From: Chloroflexota bacterium
GTDB lineage: Bacteria > Chloroflexota > Dehalococcoidia > Tepidiformales > Tepidiformaceae
Direction: 5' to 3'
DNA: 64,000 nt
Assembly (NCBI GenBank): GCA_026710655.1
Contig: JAPOQN010000030.1
Span: 1 to 64,000, forward strand
Both the position numbers and the translations under genes were made by a program. The notes beneath the pieces were generated by a model that was not told where the DNA came from, ran no database searches, and saw nothing but the letters and a program-made list of their open reading frames with translations. Each line of letters opens with the position of its first letter. Position 1 is the first letter of the stretch. This document shows positions 23,114 to 44,533 of this stretch, in pieces.

Positions 23114-23634
23114 GTGACCGGCCGTACCGGGGGCTCAGGCTTGGCGGAGGTGCCCGCGAACTCGTTCAGACCGGGCTGCAAACCACCCGGCATCGAGAGG
23201 AAGTCCTTGCGCAGCGGGTGCCCCGGGTAGCCGTCCCAGAGCAGGATGCGTTGCAGGTTCGGGTGCCCCTCGAAGCCGATGCCGAACAGGTCGTACGTCT
23301 CCGATTCCTGGATCCACGCCCCGTGCCAGATATCGACGACGCTCTGCACCGAGGCGTCCTCGCGGTCGTGCGCCTCTACCTTCGCGCAGGCCATCTGGTT
23401 CCGTTCCAGCGACTGCAGGTGGTACACCACCTCGAAGCGGTCCCACTGGTCCACCCCGCACAGGTTCGAGAGGTGCTTGAAGTTCGTCTCGGCGTCGTCG
23501 CGCAGGGCCAGCAGCGCCTCGTGGGCGTGCTCGGCGTGCAGGATGCAGGCCGTCTCGGTCGTTCTCGAAACCGACCCAGGCACAAGCCGCTCCGCCGCCT
23601 CCCCCAGCTCCTCGCCCGTCCACCAGCGCGTCAT
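23110..23634 (-). CDS. nuoC: NADH-quinone oxidoreductase subunit C
   Basis: A 174-residue 30-kDa-type subunit. The family segments are HLSNLCGVDQWDRFEVVYHL and WIQESETYDLFGIGFEGHP, followed by RILLWDGYPGHPLRKDF. I chose the ATG at 23634, which overlaps the nuoA stop (ATGA). A longer frame to 23862 lies in nuoA and is not real. nuoB, normally between nuoA and nuoC, is absent. Confidence 0.95.
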   Translation of the reverse strand: MTRWWTGEELGEAAERLVPGSVSRTTETACILHAEHAHEALLALRDDAETNFKHLSNLCGVDQWDRFEVVYHLQSLERNQMACAKVEAHDREDASVQSVVDIWHGAWIQESETYDLFGIGFEGHPNLQRILLWDGYPGHPLRKDFLSMPGGLQPGLNEFAGTSAKPEPPVRPVT

Positions 23635-24008
23635 CAGTTCCACTCCAGTGCGCGCTTGCGCCAGGCGTAGAGCCCGCCCACGACGAACGTGCCTACGAAG
23701 ATTGCGATCTTGCCCAGCCCCACGAGCCCCGCATCCTCGAACACGACTGCCCAGGGGAACAGGAACACGATCTCGACGTCGAACAGCAGGAACAGCAAAG
23801 CGATGTAGTAGAAGCGGAAGTTGAACTGCGTGAGCGCCGGTCCGCGCGTGACCATGCCGCACTCGTACGTGTCTTCCTTGACCGGGTCCGAGGGCACTTC
23901 GGGGCGGATGTTGACGAACTTAAACGCCCACGATTGCACGATCGCGCCCGCCGGAAATATCAGCGCGATGATGACAAGAATGGCGATGTGGCCGTATTCG
24001 TGGAGCAC
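23634..24008 (-). CDS. nuoA: NADH-quinone oxidoreductase subunit A
   Basis: A 124-residue subunit with three TM helices and the conserved loop DPVKEDTYECGM. The likely start is GTG at 24008 (VLHEYGHIAILVI), giving the usual family length. A start at 24083 would add 25 residues without family similarity. It opens the operon. A possible -10 box TATAGT is at 24049-24054 on the minus strand. Confidence 0.9.
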   Translation of the reverse strand: MLHEYGHIAILVIIALIFPAGAIVQSWAFKFVNIRPEVPSDPVKEDTYECGMVTRGPALTQFNFRFYYIALLFLLFDVEIVFLFPWAVVFEDAGLVGLGKIAIFVGTFVVGGLYAWRKRALEWN

Positions 24009-24048
24009 GCCCTGGCCGTTTGTGAAATCTCTCGCTAAGACCGGCGGA

Positions 24049-24054
24049 ACTATA
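24049..24054 (-). promoter_or_regulatory. Possible -10 box of the nuo operon
   Basis: TATAGT on the minus strand, 40 bp before the proposed nuoA start. There is no good -35 hexamer at normal spacing. The region 24009-24099 is the only gap before the operon. Confidence 0.3.
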
Positions 24055-24099
24055 GCACGGTCCCCCCCGCAGGGACCAAACACGGGCGTTCGCGCAGGC

Positions 24100-26064
24100 C
24101 TACTCCCGACCCGCCCCCGCGATGTTGGCGACCTCGGGAGCCGAACGGATGACCCACGAGATCGTCACGCGTGAGGACAGCGCGCCGTCGCTCACCGTCA
24201 CCGTCGAGGTCAGGGAGCCTGCCACCGTGGGGTTGCCGACGATCCGGCCAGTCCGCGCAACGATCTCCACGCCCGCCGGCAGCGCGTCGACCGACCAGGT
24301 GAGCGAGTCGCCATCGATGTCGGCGGCTGCGACACTCACGTCGACCGAGTCGCCGACGGTGAAGGACTGCGTCCCCGGGTTCGTGACCATCGGGGGCGTG
24401 TTTCCCGCGCCCTTGGTAGCCACGGCGAACGCCTCGAAGGCCGCCCTCGCCTCCGAGGGCAACAGGCTTGCGGAGACCTCGCCCACGGTGATCGCCACGG
24501 TCGCCACGACCGCCGTCCGTGGGTAGGCGCTGTAGACGTCGTAGGCCTCGTATTCGAACGAGTCGACGCCGGAGAATCCCTCGTTCGGCGTGTACCACAG
24601 GATCGTCCCGGACAACGGCACCCCGACCGTCGCATTGAGTGTTCCGTTGGCGGGTGCCGCTACAAGACGGAAGTATCGCGGGCCGGGGCTGCCAAACACC
24701 GTGGCGGCCAGCACCATGTCAACCGCAGTGTCTACCTCCGTACTGAGAGTCAGCGACTGCGCGATATAGCCCGGCACCACGCTGATGGTTTCCGAAACGG
24801 CGGCGCCATTGTTGGTCTCGTCGGTCTCCACCACGATGTCATAGGGATCGGACTCGGCCGCCAGCCGGTAGTTGCCCGGCCTCAGATCAGACACATCGAC
24901 CCACTGGAACGTGACCGAGCCCTCGTACACGTCCCGCCACCCCTCGGTCACGCCCATGCGCAGGCTGTCCGCGTCCGGATCATTTGCGCGGCAGTTCTCG
25001 ACAACCTCGGACTCGTAGGTTTGCTCACCGGGGTGCGGGTGCCTCTCGGGCAGGCTCTCCACATCCAGCATGCAGAACCCAACCTTCCGGCCCGGCAGGA
25101 TCTGGGTCGTGCCCGCCTCGTCCCACAGCGAATAAGCCACAATCTCCATCAGGTGGAAGTGGTTATGTCCATCATCGGTTTGATAGCGCACGGGCGGCTT
25201 GGTCAGGCTCACCCAGTCGCCCGTTGACGTTATGACGCGCTGCCAGACATCGTGACTCGTCGGATCCTCCGGATCTGCCAACCGGGGATCCCCAGACAGG
25301 TCCAGGGGACCGTCACCGAGATTGGTCACGTACCCCTCGAAGCGCAGGGCCAGGAACTCCTCCCCCTCCCACGTCACCGGTTGCACCTCGCCCCACTGAA
25401 CGGGCGGATCGGCCACCAGGTCGGGCAGGAGGAATACGCGGTCGTTGTCCGCGATGTACACCTTCGCCGAATCCGCTTGCTCGTCGACCGTATAGCCCGA
25501 CCCCGGTGTGATCGTGGCCGTCACGGTGCTGGTCACGTCGACCGCCCCGTCATCGTCGGTCGCCACCGCGAGCGTCGCCGTACGCTCCTTCGCCCCGAAC
25601 GTGACCGTCTCCGGCGCCGCGCCGTCCAGCATCGAACCGCTCTCCGCGACGTCGACGGAAACGGTCACTGCCACCGACGCCTCACCCGTACGCGTCAGCG
25701 TGAACACCGCGGGTGTGCCTTCTGTCGCCAGGCTCGGCCCCGCGGCGATTGACACCTCGGGAATCTCAGCCGGCGCCACGACCCCCGCGGCGGTCGGCGA
25801 CTCCTTCTTAATCCCCGCGTCGGGGACGGGCTCCCGCACCGTGGGTGTGTCTACCTCCACAGCCGCGGGCGCCGCAGGCGAGTCCGCCGGAGCGCTCGTG
25901 TCCGCGGGCGCAACCGCTTCAGGCGCCCTCTCCGCCGCTTCCGGGGCCGTACCTGTCGGGTCGCTCCGCGCCGAGACGAAAGCAACCCCCATGACCAGAA
26001 CGGCCAGGACCGCCAACGCAACGAGCTTTATCAGACCCGGCGACCCCGAGCGGTCAGATGCCAT
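24100..26064 (-). CDS. Exported bacterial lysyl oxidase with Calx-beta and Ig-like domains
   Basis: A 654-residue protein with an N-terminal membrane anchor or signal (residues 11-32) and a Pro/Ala/Glu-rich linker. A Calx-beta-like domain (about 103-208) follows, then a lysyl oxidase domain (about 214-430) and two Ig/cadherin-like domains. The copper triad is His300-x-His302-x-His304 (DGHNHFHLME). The residues that form the lysine tyrosylquinone cofactor in animal LOX are matched by Lys327 (GRKVGFCMLD) and Tyr380 (GWRDVY). The motif QWVDVSDLRPGNYRL is also LOX-like. It is predicted to oxidise primary amines outside the cell, and lies upstream of nuoA on the same strand. Confidence 0.8.
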   Translation of the reverse strand: MASDRSGSPGLIKLVALAVLAVLVMGVAFVSARSDPTGTAPEAAERAPEAVAPADTSAPADSPAAPAAVEVDTPTVREPVPDAGIKKESPTAAGVVAPAEIPEVSIAAGPSLATEGTPAVFTLTRTGEASVAVTVSVDVAESGSMLDGAAPETVTFGAKERTATLAVATDDDGAVDVTSTVTATITPGSGYTVDEQADSAKVYIADNDRVFLLPDLVADPPVQWGEVQPVTWEGEEFLALRFEGYVTNLGDGPLDLSGDPRLADPEDPTSHDVWQRVITSTGDWVSLTKPPVRYQTDDGHNHFHLMEIVAYSLWDEAGTTQILPGRKVGFCMLDVESLPERHPHPGEQTYESEVVENCRANDPDADSLRMGVTEGWRDVYEGSVTFQWVDVSDLRPGNYRLAAESDPYDIVVETDETNNGAAVSETISVVPGYIAQSLTLSTEVDTAVDMVLAATVFGSPGPRYFRLVAAPANGTLNATVGVPLSGTILWYTPNEGFSGVDSFEYEAYDVYSAYPRTAVVATVAITVGEVSASLLPSEARAAFEAFAVATKGAGNTPPMVTNPGTQSFTVGDSVDVSVAAADIDGDSLTWSVDALPAGVEIVARTGRIVGNPTVAGSLTSTVTVSDGALSSRVTISWVIRSAPEVANIAGAGRE

Positions 26065-26443
26065 GTCACCGCCTTGCCGCGCTCTTCAGACAGCCGCGCC
26101 AAGGGGCCGGGCAACGTTCGCCGTTGCAGGAGCAACCGAACAGTGACCCCGCGCCTGAGCCCCGCCGAAAGGCGCCCTCCGCGCTGCAACCTAGAGGTCA
26201 CTTCCGCGGGGCGTCAAGGCATCCAACCGCCTGGCCCGGAACGGAGCCACACGTGCGGCGCCCCGCTCGGGACTGAACACGCCGTGTCCCTCGCCCTGCC
26301 AGGCGCGAAGACCAGTGCCCGACCGACCGTCCGCACCGCCGCCGCCCGCTCGAATATGGTCCCCGGAGGTCGCGTCAGGCGCCCGATTTGCCCCTGCGAA
26401 GCCTAGGCGTAACATTCCGCTCACCCTCTCCACCAGGGGCCGC
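26065..26443. other. Intergenic region between the lysyl oxidase and ccr
   Basis: A 379-bp divergent intergenic region with no convincing gene. A TAGGTT box on the minus strand and TAACAT (26410-26415) on the plus strand may be -10 elements for the two flanking genes. No repeat, RNA gene or terminator was recognised. Confidence 0.5.
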
Positions 26444-27697
26444 ATGACCACCGGCACCGACAGCGAACTGTACCCGCTCGGAGAAGCGCCGCCGCTCGGC
26501 GAAGTACCCGCACGGATGCACGCGCAGCTCATCCGCGAGTCCCGTTTCGGCGAGCCCCTCCAGGCATTCGCCCCCGAGGTCGTCGATATCCCCCCCGTTG
26601 GCCCCGACGACGCGCTCGTCTACGTAATGGCCGCGGGCGTCAACTACAACAACGTCTGGGCCGGCCGCGGCGTCCCCATCGATGTCATCGCCGCCCGGCA
26701 GAAGGCCGGCGAGGCCGAGGACTTTCATATCGGCGGCTCCGATGCCTCCGGGATCGTTTATGCCGTCGGCGAGAACGTCACCAACATCAAGGTCGGCGAC
26801 GAAGTCATCGCCCATTGCGGCATCTGGAACGTGCACGCGCCCGGGATCACCTCGGGTGGCGACCCCATGTACGACCCCTCCTTCCGCATCTGGGGCTACG
26901 AGACCAACTGGGGCTCCTTCGCCCAGTTCACCAAGGTGCAGGCCCACCAGTGCCTGCCCAAGGCCCCCCACCTCAGCTGGGAAGAGGCCGCCGCCCCCAC
27001 CCTCGTGGGCGCCACCGCCTACCGCATGCTCTGCTCCTGGCAGCCGCACACCGTCCGCGAGGACGACGTCGTCCTCATCTGGGGCGGCGCCGGCGGCCTC
27101 GGCACGATGGCCATCCAGCTCGCCGCCCTCCAGGGGGCGAAGCCCATCGCCGTCGTCTCCAGCGACGCCAAGGGCGAGTACTGCAAGCAGCTCGGCGCCG
27201 TCGGCTACATCAACCGCAAGAACTTCGACCACTGGGGCCGCCTCCCCGACTGGGAGGACCAGTCCGGCATGGGCAAGTTCGCCAAGGGGGCTCGCGCCTT
27301 CGGCAAGGCCATCTGGGACGTGCTCGGCGAGCGCCGCAGCCCCCGCATCGTCTTCGAGCACCCCGGCGAGGACACCCTCCCGACCTCCATGTTCGTGTGC
27401 GATACGGGCGGCATGGTCGTCATCTGCGCCGGCACCACCGGCTACAACGCCGATATCGACCTGCGCTACCTCTGGATGCGCCAGAAGCGCTTCCAGGGCT
27501 CCCACTTCGCCAACGACGAGCAGGCGGGCGCGTTCAACGACCTCGTCATCCAGGGCAAGATCGACCCCTGCCTCTCCCGCGTCTTCCCCTTCGAGGAGAC
27601 GGGCGCCTGCCACCAGCTCATGTTCGAAAATCGCCACCCCGACGGCAACATGGCGATCCTCGTGGGCGCCACCGAAGAGGGACAGGGACGCCGCTAG
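26444..27697 (+). CDS. ccr: Crotonyl-CoA carboxylase/reductase
   Basis: A 417-residue medium-chain dehydrogenase/reductase of the Ccr family, which reductively carboxylates crotonyl-CoA to ethylmalonyl-CoA with NADPH. Characteristic segments are [54 protein letters not shown] and [13 protein letters not shown]. The YETNWG and HPGE regions correspond to the CO2-pocket regions known in Ccr, by analogy only. The start at 26444 follows AGGGGC; the longer frame from 26315 lacks homology. It heads a cluster with an acyl-CoA dehydrogenase and a MaoC protein. A non-carboxylating enoyl-CoA reductase role cannot be excluded. Confidence 0.85.
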
Positions 27698-41392: not shown

Positions 41393-41680
41393 ATGCCTAT
41401 CTCCCGCGATCAGGTGCTTCACATCGGCAGGCTCGCCCGCCTCGGCCTGACCGAGGACGAGATCGATCGCCTCACCACCCAGCTCTCCGACATCCTTGAC
41501 CACTTCGAGGCGCTGGCCGCCGTCGACACCGACGGCGTGGACCCCACCGCCCACCCCCTGCCCCTGCAAAACGTCATGCGCACCGACTCCGTCGCCCCCT
41601 CGCTGGCCCGCGACGATGCGCTCAGCAACGCACCCGAGGTTGAGGACGGCCTCATCCGCGTGCGCGCCGTGCTCGAATGA
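41393..41680 (+). CDS. gatC: Asp/Glu-tRNA amidotransferase subunit C
   Basis: A 95-residue GatC (MPISRDQVLHIGRLARLGLT; DILDHFEALAAVDTDGV). It stabilises GatA in the GatCAB transamidosome. The start at 41393 is supported by homology and by the TACGAT box. Its stop overlaps the gatA ATG by 4 bp. gatB is not in the window. Confidence 0.95.
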   Translation: MPISRDQVLHIGRLARLGLTEDEIDRLTTQLSDILDHFEALAAVDTDGVDPTAHPLPLQNVMRTDSVAPSLARDDALSNAPEVEDGLIRVRAVLE

Positions 41681-43134
41681 GCGAACTCTGGGAGTTGACG
41701 GCGCACGAGGCCCAGGAAGGCCTCCGTGCGAAGGCGTTCTCCGCCCTCGACCTGGCGGAGTCGGTTCTCTCGCGCGTCGACGCCGTCGAGCCCCAGGTCA
41801 ACGCCTACATCACGCGCACTGACGAAGTCGCCCGCGAACAGGCCCGTGAGGCCGACGCCCGTTTCGCTGCCGGCACGGCCACCCCCCTCACCGGCATCCC
41901 CTTCGCCGTCAAGGACCTCATCGTGACGAAGGGCGTCCGCACCACTGCCGGCTCGCGCATGCTCGGCGACTTCGTCCCGCCCTACGACAGCCATGTCTAC
42001 GAACAGCTCAAGCGCGCGGGCGCCGTGATGGTCGGCAAGGCCAACATGGACGAGTTCGCCATGGGCTCCAGCACCGAACACTCCGCCTACGGCGCCACCC
42101 GCAATCCCTGGGACACCGACCGCGTCCCCGGCGGCAGCTCCGGCGGCTCCGCCGCCGCCGTCGCCGCCGGCGAGTGCCTCGCCGCCCTCGGCAGCGACAC
42201 GGGCGGCAGCATCCGCCAGCCCGCCGCCCTCTGCGGCGTCGTCGGCCTCGACCCCACCTACGGGCGCGTCAGCCGCTACGGCATCATCGCCTTCGGCAGC
42301 TCCCTCGACCAGGTCGGTCCCATCGGCCGCGATGTTGAGGACGTCGCCACCATCCTCGACGGCATTGGCAGCCACGACCCCCGCGACTCGACCAGCGATC
42401 CCGCCCCCAGGCCCGATATGCGCCACTACCTCGGCCGCGATATCGCCGGGAAGAAGATCGGCGTCCCCCGCGAGTACTTCGTCGAGGGCATGGAGCCCGG
42501 CGTCCGCGCCCGCATCGACGAGGCCCTTGCGCTCCTCGAGTCGCTCGGCTGCGAGGTCGACACGGACCTCTCCCTGCCCATGACCGAGCACGCCCTCGCC
42601 GTCTACTACCTCATCGCCCCCAGCGAGGCGAGCTCCAACCTCGCCCGCTACGACGGGGTCAAGTACGGGCTCAGCGAGCGCGGCGGCAGCATGTGGGAGA
42701 ACATGGAGCAGACCCGCGAGCAGGGCTTCGGCGACGAGGTCAAGCGCCGCATCATGCTCGGTGTCTACGCCCTCAGCGCCGGCTACTACAACCAGTTCTA
42801 CCTGAAGGCGCAGAAGGTCCGGACCCTCATCACCAACGAGTTCCGCGAGGCCTTCACCCGCTACGACGCGCTCGTCACGCCCACCGCCCCCGGCATCGCC
42901 TTCCCCCGCGGCGAGAAGCTCGACGACCCCTACGCCATGTATCTGAACGACGTGTACACGCTCCCCAGCGCCGTCGCCGGGCTCCCCGCCCTCAGCCTCC
43001 CCTGCGGCCTCAGCGAAGGCCTGCCCGTCGGCCTCCAGGTCATCGGCGACGTGGGGGCCGAGGGAACCATCCTCCAGATCGGCCACGCCTTCGAGGGAGC
43101 CCTCGGCCAGGCCAACCGCCTCGCCCCGCTGTAG
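41677..43134 (+). CDS. gatA: Asp/Glu-tRNA amidotransferase subunit A
   Basis: A 485-residue amidase-signature enzyme that releases ammonia from Gln for tRNA-dependent amidation. The catalytic triad is Lys79 (GIPFAVKDL), cis-Ser154 (RVPGGSSGGSAAA) and Ser178 (DTGGSIRQPA), at the residue numbers known for GatA. The start overlaps gatC (ATGA). With GatB it would make Gln-tRNA and/or Asn-tRNA. Confidence 0.95.
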   Translation: MSELWELTAHEAQEGLRAKAFSALDLAESVLSRVDAVEPQVNAYITRTDEVAREQAREADARFAAGTATPLTGIPFAVKDLIVTKGVRTTAGSRMLGDFVPPYDSHVYEQLKRAGAVMVGKANMDEFAMGSSTEHSAYGATRNPWDTDRVPGGSSGGSAAAVAAGECLAALGSDTGGSIRQPAALCGVVGLDPTYGRVSRYGIIAFGSSLDQVGPIGRDVEDVATILDGIGSHDPRDSTSDPAPRPDMRHYLGRDIAGKKIGVPREYFVEGMEPGVRARIDEALALLESLGCEVDTDLSLPMTEHALAVYYLIAPSEASSNLARYDGVKYGLSERGGSMWENMEQTREQGFGDEVKRRIMLGVYALSAGYYNQFYLKAQKVRTLITNEFREAFTRYDALVTPTAPGIAFPRGEKLDDPYAMYLNDVYTLPSAVAGLPALSLPCGLSEGLPVGLQVIGDVGAEGTILQIGHAFEGALGQANRLAPL

Positions 43135-43289
43135 CCCCCGCCCGCGCCAACCTTGACCGTAATCCCCTCCGTGCCCAGAGTCCGGATCGTGGATCGCAAG
43201 CTGACCGCTACGTGTCTCCTCACTGCCGCTGCGGCGGCGGCGCAAGCGCGCAGGTAGCATGCGAGCGGTCCAGGGACGATCAGGACAGA

Positions 43290-43313
43290 AAGCCGCCCGC
43301 GGGGCGGCTCTTT
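43290..43313 (+). terminator. GC-rich hairpin between gatA and the aminotransferase
   Basis: An 8-bp stem AGCCGCCC / GGGCGGCT with 3-nt loop, flanked by A and T runs (GAAA before, CTTT after). It could terminate the gatCA transcript or act as an attenuator for the downstream aminotransferase. The T-run is short. Confidence 0.45.
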
Positions 43314-43351
43314 CGTATCCGTCACCGGCGGGGGGCGGAAGGAACGGGGCC

Positions 43352-44533
43352 GTGGAACACGATTCCCCCGGAGCCGAACGCTTCATCTCGCGGAGCCTCG
43401 CCTCTGTGCCCGCAAGCGGCATCCGTAAGTTCTTCGACCTCCTCAGCACCATCGACGACGTCATCTCCCTCGGTGTCGGCGAACCGGATTATGTAACCCC
43501 CGAACCCATCAGCCGCGCCGCCGTCGAGAGCATCGAGAAGGGCGAGACCCACTACACCTCCAACTACGGCCTCATGGAGCTCCGCGAGGCCCTCGCCGAG
43601 GAGTTGCAGACGCTCTACGGCGTCGCCTACGACCCCGCCACCGAGATCGTCGTCACCAGCGGTTCCAGCGAAGCCTTCGACATCGCCCTCCGCTCCCTCA
43701 TCGACGACGGCGACGAGGTGCTCTGCCCCGACCCCAGCTACGTCGCCTACGAGCCCGCCGTGACCATGGCCAAGGGCCGCTTCCGCCCCGTCCCCACCAG
43801 CGCCGAGCACGAGTTCCGCCTGCTCGCCGGCGACGTATCCGAGCGGGTCACCGAGCACACGAAGGCGCTTCTCTTCGGCTTCCCCGCCAACCCCACGGGC
43901 GCGACCATGGACCGCCCCAGCCTCGAAGCCGTCGCCGAGGTCGCCGCCGCCAACGATCTCGCCGTCATCAGCGATGAGCTCTACGCCCGCCTCACCTACG
44001 AAGGCGAGCACACGTGCTTCTCCTCGCTCGAGGGCATGCGCGACCGCACCATCCTCATCGGCGGCTTCAGCAAGACCTACGCCATGACCGGCTGGCGCAT
44101 CGGCTGGCTCGCCGCCCCCGCCCCGCTCGCCGAGGCCGCCATGAAGGTCCACCAGTACGTGATGATGTCGGCCCCAACCGCCGCCCAGTACGCCGCCCTC
44201 GCCGCCCTCCAGCACGGCGAAAGCTTCGTCCAGGAAATGCTGGCCGAATACGACCGCCGCCGCCGCCTCATGGTCGATGGCCTCCACGCCGTCGGCCTCC
44301 CCGCCTTCCGCCCCCGCGGCGCCTTCTACGCCTTCCCCGACATCCGCCCCACGGGCATGGACAGCACCACCTTCAGCGAGCGCCTTCTCGCCGAGGAGCG
44401 CGTCGCCGTCGTGCCCGGCGCCGCCTTCGGCGCCTGTGGCGAGGGCTTTGTGCGCGCCTGCTACGCCAGCGGCTACGAGCAGATCGAGCGAGCCCTCGAA
44501 CGCATCGGCCGCTTCGTCCAGCGCAACCGCTAA
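43352..44533 (+). CDS. Pyridoxal-phosphate aminotransferase, class I/II
   Basis: A 393-residue fold-type I aminotransferase close to aspartate/aromatic aminotransferases of subgroup I-gamma. The PLP Lys is in GGFSKTYAMTGWRIGW. Other motifs are GEPDYVTPEPI, FGFPANPTGATM and VVPGAAFGACGEGFVR (substrate carboxylate Arg). I chose GTG at 43352 after GGAAGGAACG; the frame to 43259 crosses the hairpin and lacks homology. The amino-acid substrate is not certain. Confidence 0.85.
   Translation: MEHDSPGAERFISRSLASVPASGIRKFFDLLSTIDDVISLGVGEPDYVTPEPISRAAVESIEKGETHYTSNYGLMELREALAEELQTLYGVAYDPATEIVVTSGSSEAFDIALRSLIDDGDEVLCPDPSYVAYEPAVTMAKGRFRPVPTSAEHEFRLLAGDVSERVTEHTKALLFGFPANPTGATMDRPSLEAVAEVAAANDLAVISDELYARLTYEGEHTCFSSLEGMRDRTILIGGFSKTYAMTGWRIGWLAAPAPLAEAAMKVHQYVMMSAPTAAQYAALAALQHGESFVQEMLAEYDRRRRLMVDGLHAVGLPAFRPRGAFYAFPDIRPTGMDSTTFSERLLAEERVAVVPGAAFGACGEGFVRACYASGYEQIERALERIGRFVQRNR

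Follow-up and report, generated by a model that had tools for sequence, protein, structure and literature searches.

A gene in the 64,000-nucleotide stretch of Chloroflexota DNA that we analysed (the window) very likely encodes a surface-tethered bacterial lysyl oxidase (LOX), that is, an exported amine oxidase with copper and lysine tyrosylquinone (LTQ) that is carried on Ig-like domains and was probably gained horizontally. In animals, LOX is the enzyme that cross-links collagen. The window is from a 3.14 Mb draft genome in 71 contigs, in a Chloroflexota genus labelled Dehalococcoidia; the congeners are labelled Dehalococcoidia or Chloroflexi MAG. Bacterial LOX proteins with the catalytic residues were already known (2015; PMC4448552), and the window protein adds a member with a less usual multi-domain build. 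The gene, its neighbours and the parts of the protein are listed in Table 1.

Table 1. Features of the LOX gene, its neighbours and the encoded protein (positions in the window; residues of the LOX protein).
Feature	Position	Strand	Basis
LOX gene, 654 aa plus stop	24100..26064	-	ORF from ATG; PF01186 over cut-off; orthologues at the same place in 6 named relatives
nuoA-like gene that begins the nuo operon, immediately downstream of LOX (context)	23634..24083	-	ORF and its sequence; syntenic in relatives
ccr-like (crotonyl-CoA carboxylase/reductase-like) gene, divergently oriented next to LOX on its upstream side (context); start codon uncertain	26315..27697	+	ORF; family by eye; next to nuoA with no LOX between them in some relatives
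Hydrophobic N-terminal segment, residues 12-31, membrane anchor or signal peptide	25972..26031	-	Read by eye; position conserved in orthologues
Pro/Ala/Glu-rich linker, residues 35-100	25765..25962	-	Poorly conserved; dN/dS 0.44-0.74 for residues 1-100
Calx-beta-like domain, residues about 101-209	25438..25764	-	Weak Pfam Calx-beta in 5/7 orthologues, best E 0.0026
Lysyl oxidase catalytic domain, residues about 210-432	24769..25437	-	PF01186 at 294-422; model pLDDT 92.2; LOXL2 Z 14.3; dN/dS 0.14-0.24
Ig-like domain (Big_9/cadherin-like), residues about 433-530	24475..24768	-	Big_9 in 7/7 orthologues; tandem-95 match at 473-530
Second Ig-like domain (He_PIG), residues 557-639	24148..24396	-	E 5.9e-12; in 2/7 orthologues only
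Copper motif H300-x-H302-x-H304 (predicted)	25153..25167	-	Aligned with LOXL2; invariant in 38 relatives
K327, predicted LTQ lysine	25084..25086	-	Aligned with LOXL2; invariant in 38 relatives
Y380, predicted LTQ tyrosine	24925..24927	-	Aligned with LOXL2; invariant in 38 relatives
C331, one of only two cysteines	25072..25074	-	Invariant across 38 relatives; putative disulfide
C358, partner cysteine of C331	24991..24993	-	Invariant across 38 relatives; putative disulfide

The window protein is, by its sequence, a member of the lysyl oxidase family in which the copper triad and the LTQ pair are both complete. The Pfam profile Lysyl_oxidase (PF01186) matched residues 294-422 with an E value of 4.8e-12 and a score of 46.4 bits, compared to a cut-off of 20.4. 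Human LOXL2 (5ze3) was the sole lysyl oxidase in the PDB that was matched by the window protein sequence in a phmmer search (E 6.2e-7), and a profile of 38 LOX relatives matched LOXL2 at E 1.7e-23, with the HxHxH motif, the Lys, and the Tyr all aligned. The two proteins share the copper triad, the LTQ Lys and Tyr, the DxY, QW, GxY, and E-x-D motifs, and the fold. LOXL2 is an animal matrix enzyme with SRCR domains, whereas the window protein has Calx-beta-like and Ig-like companions instead and had no Pfam match to the SRCR domains that are present in LOXL2, LOXL3, and LOXL4. The window protein also has just two cysteines (C331 and C358), in contrast to the several disulfides of animal-type LOX. 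Profile searches for the classical copper amine oxidase family, that with TPQ (PF01179), found none in the LOX protein and none in any of the nine congeners.

The five catalytic residues were invariant in an alignment of 38 sequences. The members of this alignment (A2) were collected across the phylum and on named genome contigs and are 23-83% identical to the window protein; one paralogue (L049, described below) and fragments were deliberately left out, and the invariance is thus that of intact members. The invariant columns were P214, H300, H302, H304, K327, C331, C358, D378, Y380, Q387, G397, Y399, and E413, which comprise the catalytic residues and their surroundings. Because all five catalytic residues were invariant in sequences this divergent, their occurrence in the window protein is not due to chance. 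The original prediction was that H300, H302, and H304, together with Lys327 and Tyr380, match the residues that bind copper and build LTQ in animal LOX. These positions proved to be exact, and they align with chain positions 309/311/313, 336, and 372 of LOXL2 (5ze3), as counted from the alignment. We take these chain positions to be H626/H628/H630, K653, and Y689, presuming a 457-residue LOXL2 construct that starts at residue 318 (457 = 774-317). Copper binding and LTQ formation are predicted for the window protein, and the protein is likely to be catalytically competent. L049:1417-2499, a LOX paralogue from a different Chloroflexota genome, has Q-x-Q-x-Q in place of the triad and Asn in place of the LTQ tyrosine, and is probably a natural inactive form.

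The fold of the catalytic core was most similar to that of LOXL2. A model of residues 205-435, made on the 38-sequence alignment, had a pLDDT of 92.2 and a pTM of 0.87, and its best fold match was LOXL2 (Foldseek E 1.8e-9). The overlay on LOXL2 that had been proposed along with the original prediction was run as a fold comparison, in which residues 1-230 of the core model and residues 441-740 of LOXL2 superimposed with a Z score of 14.3 and an rmsd of 3.5 over 178 residues. The distance between Lys327 and Tyr380 in a model, which had been offered as a way to refute the prediction, is an unfair measure because the Lys and Tyr are still unbonded in the solved LOXL2 precursor (5ze3). A full-length structure prediction with the seven orthologues had a pLDDT of 29 and was set aside.

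The catalytic domain very probably lies on the outer side of the membrane, presented by Ig-like modules. The protein had been described as exported and fused to Calx-beta and Ig-like domains. Export agrees with the hydrophobic stretch of residues 12-31, seen by eye in the sequence, which does not discriminate between cleavage and anchoring. The Ig-like domains were found as described, in the form of Big_9 and He_PIG (Table 1). The Calx-beta assignment did not hold as worded: in a Pfam search at E 1, residues 101-209 of the window protein did not reach the threshold for Calx-beta, and we refer to this domain as Calx-beta-like. There was no SLH anchor in the genome that carries the window LOX. 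Display outside the membrane together with complete copper and LTQ residues makes extracellular amine oxidation the natural prediction.

We propose that the N-terminal hydrophobic segment would take the LOX protein across the membrane, and that the flexible linker and the Calx-beta-like and Ig-like domains would hold the enzyme outside. There, the three histidines would bind copper, copper and O2 would turn Y380 into a quinone, and LTQ would form as this quinone couples to K327. The mature enzyme would then convert accessible primary amines (lysine side chains of proteins, polyamines, or other small amines) to aldehydes, with production of NH3 and H2O2.

A prokaryotic LOX has been characterized biochemically. 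HTU-LOX of the archaeon Haloterrigena turkmenica was described in 2019 as an active copper-dependent, BAPN-sensitive amine oxidase (PMC6452851). Like the window protein it is a prokaryotic LOX with a hydrophobic N-terminus, and the same paper marks its three His and its LTQ Lys and Tyr as hyperconserved, a likeness to the window LOX that is by description. HTU-LOX is an archaeal protein of 308 aa that was tested biochemically, whereas the window LOX is longer (654 aa), carries extra modules, and is known from its sequence. Amine oxidase activity was undetectable in the host of HTU-LOX, and full-length HTU-LOX was inactive until its N-terminus was removed (PMC6452851). The window LOX might therefore likewise be silent or need processing.

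In a previous survey, LOX proteins of five bacterial clades had the LTQ pair along with three His and were predicted to be active (Grau-Bove et al. 2015; PMC4448552). Chloroflexi are absent from the five clades listed, and the prokaryotic LOX proteins were single-domain in all but three. The bacterial LOX proteins of that survey are without the first animal His (H289), and the window motif likewise has no His before the triad. No papers dealing with a LOX of Chloroflexi or of sponge symbionts came up in our literature searches.

LOX was present in most of the genus and was found at one chromosomal site. It was in 7/9 genomes of the genus and in 0/29 other genomes of the family, and in all six named relatives it was between ccr and the nuo operon (nuoA). 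In a congener without LOX (G028) and in two genomes of other genera (G017 and G010), ccr and nuoA were adjacent with no LOX between them. The gap between ccr and nuoA appears to be a spot of varying gene content: in some other genera of the family (L057, L058, L055, and L061) it contains a gene of approximately 367 aa that is oxidoreductase-like (Gfo/Idh/MocA-like by eye) and unrelated to LOX. A scan for promoters and terminators found nothing. We saw no dedicated partner gene for the window LOX, and a comparison of the neighbours of actinobacterial LOX genes found no partner gene common to them.

The genus probably gained LOX horizontally. In a tree whose root is for drawing only, the LOX proteins of the genus and one other Chloroflexota sequence (L032) were inside an otherwise actinobacterial clade with a support of 100/100, and 19 other Chloroflexota LOX proteins fell apart from them. 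We infer horizontal gain because the LOX of the genus sits in an actinobacterial clade and apart from most Chloroflexota LOX; the donor was most likely of the actinobacterial type, with the genus as the putative recipient. The ancestor of most of the genus would have taken the gene up from a different bacterium, with ccr and nuoA flanking the point of insertion, and selection would have retained it. The absence of LOX from G028 and G035 could be due to loss instead of later gain.

The actinobacterial LOX proteins L014, L024, L016, L020, L022, and L023 belong with the window protein (clade support 100/100 for those in the tree). Their LOX domains were 40-49% identical to that of the window protein where compared, and most have surface-type modules. 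These modules are SLH, PKD, and CBM_4_9, in contrast to the membrane-anchored, Calx-beta-like build of the window LOX. An Acidimicrobiaceae protein (L024:2628-5171) combines LOX with S-layer homology, He_PIG, and Big_9 domains in one fusion, and the LOX proteins of L016, L020, L022, and L023 carry PKD and, in some, CBM_4_9. This multi-domain LOX clade in Actinobacteria and Chloroflexota is absent from the text of the 2015 survey (PMC4448552).

The LOX domain is under purifying selection. Pairwise dN/dS was 0.14-0.24 for the LOX domain, compared to 0.44-0.74 for residues 1-100, and the five catalytic residues and the Cys pair were kept in 7/7 orthologues.

Members of the genus are likely to be sponge symbionts. 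The isolate name of one congener, jk18x1bzbins.86, fits the naming of bins in a study of Ircinia sponges (PMC9531527), and the names p16x63bins.9, IRC1_bin_31, IRC3_bin_22, SB0661_bin_22, and SB0662_bin_5 may likewise point to sponge samples. The link is through the bin names of relatives, at least one of which matches the Ircinia study, and not through the record of the window genome itself.

We considered whether the core might be a CARDB-type Ig domain in which HxHxH occurs by chance, rather than a lysyl oxidase. The LOX core (24769-25437) does resemble CARDB Ig-type domains, with a profile E value of 0.0015 to 2kl6 and a fold Z score of 7.8 to 3idu, and the Pfam CARDB profile scored 17.2 bits with the LOX protein, below its cut-off of 22.7. 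However, the match to LOXL2 was far stronger both by sequence and by fold and extends over the entire core, and the catalytic residues stay invariant across deep divergence. A CARDB identity for the core is strongly disfavoured, and we regard it as extremely improbable; the likeness may be a hint of an origin of LOX in a CARDB-like domain. It is also quite improbable that the LOX domain is degenerate, or a purely adhesive remnant that is no longer catalytic. The L049 paralogue indicates that catalytic loss occurs in the superfamily, but the orthologues of the window protein have all kept the catalytic residues and the Cys pair, and no other part of the protein is as constrained as LOX.

For an active enzyme, a plausible but tentative role is the cross-linking or modification of proteins, in which lysines of the cell's own coat or of the collagenous matrix of a sponge would be converted to aldehydes that cross-link and thereby fix the cell or its coat in position. 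Tethering by the Ig-like modules would keep LOX close to surface proteins, and SLH, PKD, or carbohydrate-binding modules occur as fusions in close LOX relatives. Large Calx-beta proteins are found in several congeners, one of these proteins having a charged Pro/Glu/Lys stalk, and the Ircinia-type bin name of at least one named relative is consistent with a sponge setting. In contrast, the collagen-family matches in two loci that we read were antisense artefacts, and the nearest actinobacterial relatives are not known as sponge-associated. We think it unlikely that a horizontally acquired, tethered LOX of a sponge-symbiont genus acts on collagen or spongin lysines of the host; if true, a bacterial enzyme would be doing the job of animal LOX on an animal matrix, to lodge in or reshape the tissue. 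The use of free amines is possible but doubtful. Host or environmental amines (polyamines, taurine) would be deaminated to provide ammonia or carbon, consistent with the broad substrate range of HTU-LOX, for which taurine is among the best substrates (PMC6452851), and with a genus that is without the classical copper amine oxidase PF01179. However, sulfoacetaldehyde acetyltransferase (Xsc) was over the cut-off in 0/9 congeners, with matches to general TPP enzymes only, and the use of taurine carbon via Xsc is therefore unsupported. No amine transporter gene was recognised beside LOX among the neighbours scanned, and scavenging does not need a multi-domain surface build. No physiological role of a prokaryotic LOX was shown in the literature that we found. 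The surface-tethered lysyl oxidase that we favour, restricted to one genus, under selection, and with LOX-less congeners at hand, provides a concrete setting for asking about the function of bacterial LOX, on the cell's own coat versus an animal matrix.

Several other loci in the genus and in the window were noticed. The collagen-family matches of the genus were considered as LOX substrates and rejected, since in both loci that we read the matching frames run antisense to surface-protein Pro/Glu repeats. One locus, G000:C5:91430-93190 (L064, L068), encodes a surface protein of Calx-beta repeats that has a long stalk of Pro/Glu repeats and a C-terminal membrane segment, and its antisense frame yields a false collagen match. 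In the window, an ORF of 681 aa at 41419-43464 (minus strand) had no Pfam match at 1e-4 and overlaps at its 5' end with a good aminotransferase ORF on the opposite strand (43259-44533). A second NuoD homologue (G000:C9:12045-13127), 51% identical to the NuoD of the window, suggests that there may be a second complex I in the genus.
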